Below are positions 33,831 to 34,667 of a DNA stretch of 42,934 nt, piece by piece. Each line of letters opens with the position of its first letter. Position 1 is the first letter of the stretch. Both the position numbers and the translations under genes were made by a program. Origin of the DNA: Geminocystis sp. M7585_C2015_104 (GTDB lineage Bacteria; Cyanobacteriota; Cyanobacteriia; Cyanobacteriales; Cyanobacteriaceae); the NCBI GenBank assembly GCA_015295805.1, contig DVEF01000075.1, positions 1 through 42,934 on the forward strand. The letters run 5' to 3'. The notes under the pieces were generated by a model. The model was not told the DNA's origin and searched no databases. It saw only the letters and a program-made list of their open reading frames with translations.

Positions 33831-33857
33831 AACTGCTCTTTGGGGCAGTTTTTCTTA
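33831..33857 (+). terminator. Terminator after murE
   Basis: AACTGC (33831-33836) pairs with GCAGTT (33845-33850), extended by two inner pairs, and is followed by TTTCTT. It lies between murE and the convergent tandem coiled-coil genes. Confidence 0.65.
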
Positions 33858-33901: not shown

Positions 33902-34273
33902 TCAGGCGCTGGGAATAACACCAAATAGTTTAGCTAAACCCGCCAAAATTGCGGCCAAAAAACCTATTAAAATCCCACGATTTATAAATTCTTGAAATTC
34001 CAATCTTTTATCCAGGGCGTCAATTTTGGCTCCCAAACTCTGTTCGATTCTTTTGATTTCCCCCTCCAGTCTGGCTTGGCCCACCTTTAATTCCGTCATG
34101 TTTCCTTCTATCTTCTCCAGTCTGGCTTCTATTTTCTCGAATCTCTTATCGACTTGTTCAAACCTTTTGTCAATCTGTTCAAACCGTTGGTCAATTTGTT
34201 GAAACCTGAGCTCAATTTGTTTAAACTGTTGGGCTAAGTACTCCTTCAAGTCTTGTTCAATGGTAACTGACAT
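33902..34273 (-). CDS. Tandem coiled-coil protein with C-terminal membrane anchor, copy A
   Basis: A 123-aa protein of unknown function. After MSVTIEQDLKEYLAQQFKQIEL comes a run of seven-residue units of the form RFEQIDK / RFEQVDK / RFEKIEA / RLEKIEG, an uninterrupted heptad coiled coil, then a conserved linker (LKVGQARLE, DALDKRLEFQEFINRG) and a C-terminal hydrophobic helix (ILIGFLAAILAGLAKLFGVI). It is a tail-anchored coiled coil. Copy B lies directly upstream (28 bp). Copy A has an extra 11-residue stretch (EIKRIEQSLGA region) absent from B. Confidence 0.8.
   Translation of the reverse strand: MSVTIEQDLKEYLAQQFKQIELRFQQIDQRFEQIDKRFEQVDKRFEKIEARLEKIEGNMTELKVGQARLEGEIKRIEQSLGAKIDALDKRLEFQEFINRGILIGFLAAILAGLAKLFGVIPSA
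33911..34027. repeat. Direct repeat unit A (3' ends of the tandem paralogs)
   Basis: About 117 bp nearly identical to 34317-34433 (offset 406 bp), covering the C-terminal membrane helix and linker. Only a few substitutions, so recent duplication or gene conversion. Confidence 0.85.
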
Positions 34274-34301
34274 GTGATGGACTCCTAATCCGATTCTCTT
34301 T

Positions 34302-34667
34302 CTAGTTTACCGCATCGGGAATTACACCAAATAGTTTAGCTAAACCCGCCAAAATTGCGGCCAAAAAACCTATTAAAACCCCACGATTTATAAATTCTTG
34401 AAATTCCAATCTCTTGTCTAGGGCGTCAATTTTCTCCTCCAGTCTAGCTTGACCCACTTTTAAGTCTGTGATATTCCCCTCGATTTTTTCTAGTTTGGCT
34501 TCTATTTTCTCGAATTTCTGTTCTACCTTCTCAAATCTGGTGTCAATTTTTTCAAATCTTTTTTCTATCTGTTCAAACCGTTGGTCAATTTGTTGAAACC
34601 TAAGCTCAATTTGTTTAAACTGTCCCCCAAAATAGTCTTTCAAGTCTTTTTCAATGGCAACTGACAT
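34302..34667 (-). CDS. Tandem coiled-coil protein with C-terminal membrane anchor, copy B
   Basis: A 121-aa paralog of the neighbouring copy A. MSVAIEKDLKDYFGGQFKQIEL is followed by RFQQIDQ, RFEQIEK, RFEKIDT, RFEKVEQ, KFEKIEA and KLEKIEG, one heptad unit more than in A, then the same LKVGQARLE linker and the C-terminal helix (VLIGFLAAILAGLAKLFGVIPDAVN). The two differ by a whole heptad insertion and an 11-residue deletion, as if the coil length is free to change while both ends are held. Function unknown; membrane-anchored, cytoplasm- or periplasm-facing coil. Confidence 0.8.
   Translation of the reverse strand: MSVAIEKDLKDYFGGQFKQIELRFQQIDQRFEQIEKRFEKIDTRFEKVEQKFEKIEAKLEKIEGNITDLKVGQARLEEKIDALDKRLEFQEFINRGVLIGFLAAILAGLAKLFGVIPDAVN
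34317..34433. repeat. Direct repeat unit B (3' ends of the tandem paralogs)
   Basis: Partner of the 33911-34027 repeat; near-identical with the same orientation. Confidence 0.85.

Follow-up and report, generated by a model that had tools for sequence, protein, structure and literature searches.

The stretch analysed here (the window) is contig DVEF01000075.1 of Geminocystis sp. M7585_C2015_104, 42,934 nucleotides long. On its reverse strand, to which all coordinates of the pair refer, it carries two adjacent small genes, A (33902-34273, 123 aa) and B (34302-34667, 121 aa). The order of transcription is B, then A, with 28 bp between the open reading frames (ORFs). This spacer (34274-34301) contains an AGGAG ribosome-binding-like sequence, and the two genes are probably co-transcribed.

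ORF calls and sequence give both proteins the same plan. An N-terminal cap (MSVTIEQDLKEYL in A) leads into heptads encoded by 21-bp units, six in A (residues 17-58, 34100-34225) and seven in B (residues 17-65, from FKQIELR to LEKIEGN, 34473-34619). Then come a conserved LKVGQARLE segment and the juxtamembrane motif QEFxxRG, which precedes a 15-residue, Arg/Lys-bounded core, R99-x15-K115 in A (33929-33979) and R95-x15-K111 in B (34335-34385). Membrane insertion of this core is predicted from sequence only. The AlphaFold2 model of A is a single continuous helix over residues 2-116 (mean predicted local distance difference test score 90.0, predicted template modelling score 0.41) with no strands. 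An N-terminal coil, a single C-terminal hydrophobic segment of the R/K-x15-K/R type and one predicted helix together make up a tail-anchored coiled-coil architecture.

The initial annotation had described tandem genes with near-identical ends whose coils differ by one heptad and one 11-residue block, and both observations are borne out. The repeat search finds a 117-bp block shared at 96% identity by the 3′ ends of A (33911-34027) and B (34317-34433). The two proteins are 86% identical (E 2.2e-45), so their likeness is not due to chance. The stretch running from the N-terminal DLKE (DLKD in B) to LKVG measures 54 residues in A and 61 in B, 7 more in B. The one from LKVG to QEF measures 32 residues in A and 21 in B; the 11 extra residues of A correspond to a 33-bp block (34025-34057, ends uncertain by a few residues) that is absent from B. 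Tandem Repeats Finder reports a 21-bp repeat in each gene, with values of 3.4 copies at 82% and 3.8 copies at 72%, and the hydrophobic period is 3.51 in A and in B.

The annotation had further proposed that tandem copies would allow hetero-oligomers with different reach from the membrane. For this pair the idea of different reach is weak, because +7 and -11 nearly cancel: the total span, counted in residues between the N-terminal cap anchor and the membrane motif, is 85 in A and 81 in B. With a helix rise of 1.5 Å per residue, the gap of 4 residues corresponds to about 0.6 nm. What the difference shifts is the conserved LKVGQARLE segment: its distance above the membrane motif is 32 residues in A but 21 in B, about 1.7 nm apart. 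Eleven residues do not make whole heptads, so beyond the LKVGQARLE point a parallel coil of A with B would lose register, and homo-oligomers would be expected.

In a sister genome (G001), three family copies lie between the same flanking genes. This syntenic locus means that the tandem copies are not an assembly artefact, and both genomes of the genus examined carry the array. Spans in the three sister copies are 78, 88 and 92 residues; copy 1 of that genome has an addition of 18 residues, one 11 plus one 7. Orthologous pairs differ by 7 residues each, with spans of 81 and 88 in one pair and 85 and 78 in the other. Seven flanking proteins compared between the two genomes, by contrast, show four gaps in total, each of one residue.

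The quartet formed by A, B and their sister orthologs has 33 informative sites, and these tell different histories for ends and core. Sites in the cap and first two heptads pair the copies by species (8 sites against 0 for orthologs), as do those in the heptad just before the core (4 against 0) and in the C-terminal block (12 against 1). In the core, consisting of the last heptad and the mid segment, 7 sites pair the orthologs and 1 the copies of the same species. Core and two ends (20:1 for same-species pairing in the ends, 1:7 in the core) differ at Fisher 3.9e-5. Pairwise counts agree for the ends: A and B differ at 7 sites of the C-terminal 120 bp, compared to 21 between each and its own ortholog, and at 11 sites of the N-terminal 90 bp, compared to 15 and 19. 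Over the 84-bp mid block the counts are 16 for A and B, 13 for B and its ortholog and 16 for A and its ortholog, and the two species share one B heptad base for base, over all 21 positions. The simplest reading of this small sample is that the A and B types predate the species split and that the ends have been homogenised by gene conversion ever since.

The family extends well beyond this genus. A C-terminal profile (A2; 51 positions, 13 rows) has matches in 108 of the 388 genomes of the order, frequently more than one per genome, and tandem arrays reach five copies. In a sample of the phylum it matches 32 of 386 genomes, all 32 in the same order, the share of this sample from outside the order not being fully listed. 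Used as query, protein A matches 24 of 60 relatives at E 1e-6, and one of these genomes (G020) has 23 matching stretches, some being fragments of a single gene. Relatives that have the family include Hydrococcus rivularis NIES-593 and Microcystis. In their own genome A and B are the sole matches to the profile, and the next match to protein A after B has 29% identity (E 3.9e-4). Two weak own-genome matches, L005 and L006, are not family members judging by their ORFs. Four plasmid records match, all 'hypothetical protein' and none covering 80% of A.

We found no convincing family for A or B in Pfam and NCBIfam; A matches 17 Pfam families at E 0.01, and we read these as coil cross-matches. PHROGs of unknown function match widely; the match of phrog_6701 to A (E 1.5e-8, residues 10-111) and those of phrog_5553 to 45 of 55 members are examples, and coil likeness and kinship cannot be separated in them. 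Among sequences of solved structures 135 match at E 0.1, and the best 60 of the 135 are coils. A role as a defence gene was rejected, as the PADLOC matches of both proteins score under 23 bits, lie mostly on long proteins and look like coil cross-matches. Among the entries listed from the literature searched, which excludes most subscription journals, no title or abstract start describes the family. The matches point to a cyanobacterial family of putative membrane proteins, with at least 17 profile matches in two genomes of the order, that is not named in the family libraries searched.

Coil length varies across this family in a quantised way. The C-terminal profile matched 170 frames, 14 of them without the EF-x2-R/K motif; from the remaining 156 we removed 17 in which no ATG precedes a recognisable N-terminal anchor (several of them looking like GTG starts or truncations) and 1 duplicate. 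This left 138 distinct measured proteins, and 137 after removal of one misassigned start. Nine of these have a span of 42, one has 35 (offset -7) and 10 lie beyond 101 (offset above 59), leaving 117 with offsets of 1-59 for the test. Loci L120-L149, from the order-wide profile search, were not scanned separately.

With no member dropped, 110 of the 117 spans equal 42+7a+11b. Of the 29 offsets representable as 7a+11b, 23 occur, against 6 of the 30 that are not representable (Fisher 5e-6). Restricting the set to profile E up to 1e-12 gives 104 of 107 spans on the grid, with 22 of 29 against 3 of 30 offsets (Fisher 2e-7), and at E 1e-15 the fit is 90 of 93. Among all pairs of units from 3 to 16, units 7 and 11 show the largest gain over integer coverage in each subset. 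Units 4 and 7 fit every span in one subset but cover 85% of all integers. Heptads (7/2), hendecads (11/3) and 15/4 are coil periods given in PMC4786415, and the three misfits among close members, two of which come from G016, fit if one +15 unit is allowed. The hydrophobic period has a median of 3.58 over 79 members with a span of at least 70; period medians and composition include the divergent locus L117 and one L109 copy. The anchor core R/K-x15-K/R is constant in 117 of 121.

Accordingly, length looks free and helical phase locked in this family, because 7 and 11 are whole-turn units of a coil. The annotation had suggested selection on coil length or register, and the part on register stands: steps of 7 and 11 residues throughout the family support such a constraint well. 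The scarcity of other steps may reflect selection on phase or only the make-up of the repeats. It argues for selection that the flanking genes show one-residue gaps while the family keeps the 7/11 grid; caution is in order since neither a control family nor a phenotype stands behind phase selection.

Length and copy number also change in place. The 80 regions studied were picked as best matches plus visible tandem arrays and give no array frequency. At one syntenic locus of another genus, six genomes carry arrays of 2-4 copies with spans of 60, 71, 75, 82 and 93, with longest common stretches that are 88-95% identical. Together with the 21-bp repeats of A and B, this locus supports the suggestion that the change takes place in repeated DNA. 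The longest array seen has five copies with short spacers (L150:2771-4679), whose spans are 67, 60, 71, 78 and 96 and whose C-terminal blocks have at most 7 differences in 108. Rod length appears to change fast while the ends stay alike, and the alternative of a single copy of fixed length fails, as relatives have several copies with varying coil lengths.

Diversification of length within arrays is not supported. Over 17 arrays, 2 of 39 pairs are of equal length, compared to 2.7 expected in shuffles (P 0.49), so equal pairs are not rarer than in shuffles and selection for unequal lengths within arrays finds no backing. Two looser arrays (L063 and L229) were added for this count, L091 was left out because one span is unknown, and the span of the first L156 copy was set to 60 by hand. 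At the six-genome locus there are 0 equal pairs against 2.6 expected (P 0.036), in arrays that are not independent of one another.

Some copies are altered. In G020, 13 copies are interrupted, all at the same anchor codon, by a palindromic, G/C-rich insert about 40 bp long, and the frame ends early. They lie at loci L063, L065-L072, L075 and L076 (for example L063:3449-4384 and L065:3420-4280); in L072 and L075 a further insert is nested in the palindromic one, about 200 bp long in L072. All 11 exact genome matches to the 24-base core pattern of the insert fall inside this gene family; this suggests either that gene conversion has spread the insert or that it is an element of very narrow target choice.

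Related subfamilies were also seen. A Microcystis gene (L056:5001-5303) has the same cap and an LEVGQARLE segment together with a different membrane segment, and passes the XhlA cut-off; judging from it, cap and anchor may be shuffled between subfamilies. A distant subfamily (L078, L104, L111, L113 and L114), which occurs in G020 and in the taxonomic family to which the window belongs, starts like MSTVTDNDLKELKDLI and has another anchor. In a divergent subfamily (L108-L110 and L117; MTDKDFGELRELI in L109), 2 of 6 measured members fit the 7/11 grid, and its base length may be another one. With all six removed, 108 of 111 spans fit.

We consider it somewhat better than an even bet that A and B are small tail-anchored coiled-coil stalk proteins in which length is free and phase fixed, with repeats that change by units of 7 or 11. 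The cap and one continuous helix would assemble into a parallel coiled-coil oligomer, followed by LKVGQARLE, QEFxxRG and the membrane core. The coil would then lie in the cytoplasm and could serve as a scaffold or tether. Recombination and slippage between 21-bp and 33-bp repeats would each time add or remove one heptad or 11-mer, and the survivors would be those changes that leave the hydrophobic seam in phase from the cap through to the anchor, since an unbroken coil is needed either for assembly or for orienting the cap at the membrane. Gene conversion in tandem arrays would keep the ends alike, and cores of unequal unit number would escape it and persist as A and B types. The observation of tandem paralogs from which the annotation set out is confirmed, and its interpretation partly supported.

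Several points weigh against this account. A core of 15 residues is short for a transmembrane helix. Slippage in 21-bp and 33-bp repeats would by itself yield steps of 7 and 11, so quantisation is no proof of selection, and the grid was measured in this family alone. The 13 insert-bearing G020 copies have no intact anchor, which would make the anchored form dispensable in some copies. For the history of ends and core, the borders of the quartet test were chosen once the sites had been seen, and across the full mid block A is as far from its ortholog as from B, the support coming from B. Finally, clustering of 362 neighbouring ORFs gave no common partner, the largest cluster spanning 6 loci.

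The strongest of the rivals, which we regard as unlikely but worth keeping in mind, is neutral repeat slippage in a dispensable family, where the 21-bp and 33-bp repeats set the quantisation and tandem copies are by-products of recombination. It would account for the repeats in both genes, for array copies whose spans are equal no more rarely than by chance, for sister orthologs of different length and for the broken copies in G020, and it agrees with the lack of a match in 280 of the 388 genomes. Such slippage sits less well with the rarity of off-grid spans (7 of 117, or 3 of 107 among close members) beside flanking genes with single-residue gaps. Nor does it explain the conservation of mid segment, juxtamembrane motif and anchor across genera, or why 21-bp repeats that have diverged to 72-82% are still in phase. 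A more elaborate version of the stalk account, offered tentatively and, as a whole, rather improbable, would see a two-unit (7/11) phase-locked stalk system of extremely variable length, with tandem sets, converted ends and cores of unequal unit number, in which the docking height of LKVGQARLE is tuned by whole turns and like assembles with like.

Two further rivals take their cue from database matches, and we give both very little weight. XhlA is a lysis accessory in phages, and A and B could derive from such a protein, a coil with a C-terminal membrane segment, recruited to cellular use. PF10779 is matched by 28 of 55 members at E 0.01, the Microcystis gene at L056 scores 36.6 bits against a cut-off of 34.7 (profile 2-64 of 67), three more of 10 relatives scanned match nearly the whole profile below the cut-off (27.3-31.1 bits), and PHROGs labelled 'hemolysin' and 'holin' are matched by 12-20 of the 55. 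B itself, however, reaches 27.2 bits with its coil part only (profile 2-45 of 67), A does not reach E 0.01, the flanks are chromosomal and kept in the sister genome, and none of 50,697 records in a phage collection matches A at E 1e-5. The other idea, a tail-tethered amphipathic 11-mer protein of lipid surfaces (apolipoprotein-, synuclein- or LEA-like), draws on apolipoprotein A-IV as the best solved-sequence match of the family profile (E 1.6e-6), on matches of the Apolipoprotein family to 17 of 55 members at E 0.01 and on one 18-residue window of A with a D factor of 1.15, a lipid-binding value on that scale. It is opposed by the heptad period of A and B, by their low mean hydrophobicity of 0.12 and by the high charge of the coil, about 44% of residues family-wide.

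Coil length changes fast here and yet is nearly confined to the two steps that are harmless in coil theory. More than 100 natural variants are thereby available to ask whether helical phase or physical length matters between cap and anchor.

The genes flanking the pair are ones we take to be murE-like and PucC-like. A terminator-like hairpin with a T run (33831-33850, forward strand) lies 3′ of the murE-like gene, a short way downstream of the 3′ end of gene A. A promoter scan found 3 where 2.8 were expected.

Among known systems, XhlA (PF10779) is likewise a small coil with a C-terminal membrane segment, and one relative passes its cut-off with others near, but A and B stay below it. XhlA typically lies in a prophage lysis cassette, and the A/B locus is not one: its chromosomal, syntenic flanks give no phage setting. 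The match of B to FlaC_arch (PF05377; 34.2 bits, cut-off 27.8; A 20.5) is the only formal Pfam pass of the two proteins and has the coil as its best stretch (profile 1-40 of 55). We read it as a probable coil cross-match; 17 of 55 members match this family at E 0.01. FlaC_arch belongs with archaeal flagellar genes, and going by gene names familiar to us we recognised none near A and B among the ORFs of the window or at the sister locus. Borrelia Bdr and streptococcal M proteins have a repeat or coil region of variable length that recombines in repeated DNA, and Bdr proteins also have a C-terminal membrane segment; the analogy to A and B is one of general description.

DUF1640/CCDC90 proteins follow a head-neck-stalk-anchor plan. 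PMC4786415 describes them as integral membrane proteins, found in prokaryotes and mitochondria, that carry a C-terminal stalk. This family is absent from the 17 Pfam families matching A. Its neck is a beta layer (PMC4786415), and the single-chain model of A is strandless, but a beta layer of this kind forms only in the oligomer.

The coiled-coil linkers of sensor histidine kinases and related receptors come in discrete lengths with heptad periodicity because a continuous coil joins two ends (PMC6798134). The A/B family likewise has discrete, periodic coil lengths; it differs in having no sensor or kinase domain, in using steps of 11 besides 7 and in placing unequal tandem paralogs side by side. 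Spacer coiled coils, as presented in PMC5082667, use a continuous coil as a spacer, which is what we propose for A and B. Coiled-coil length is on average strongly conserved there, whereas in the A/B family length is instead the property that varies.
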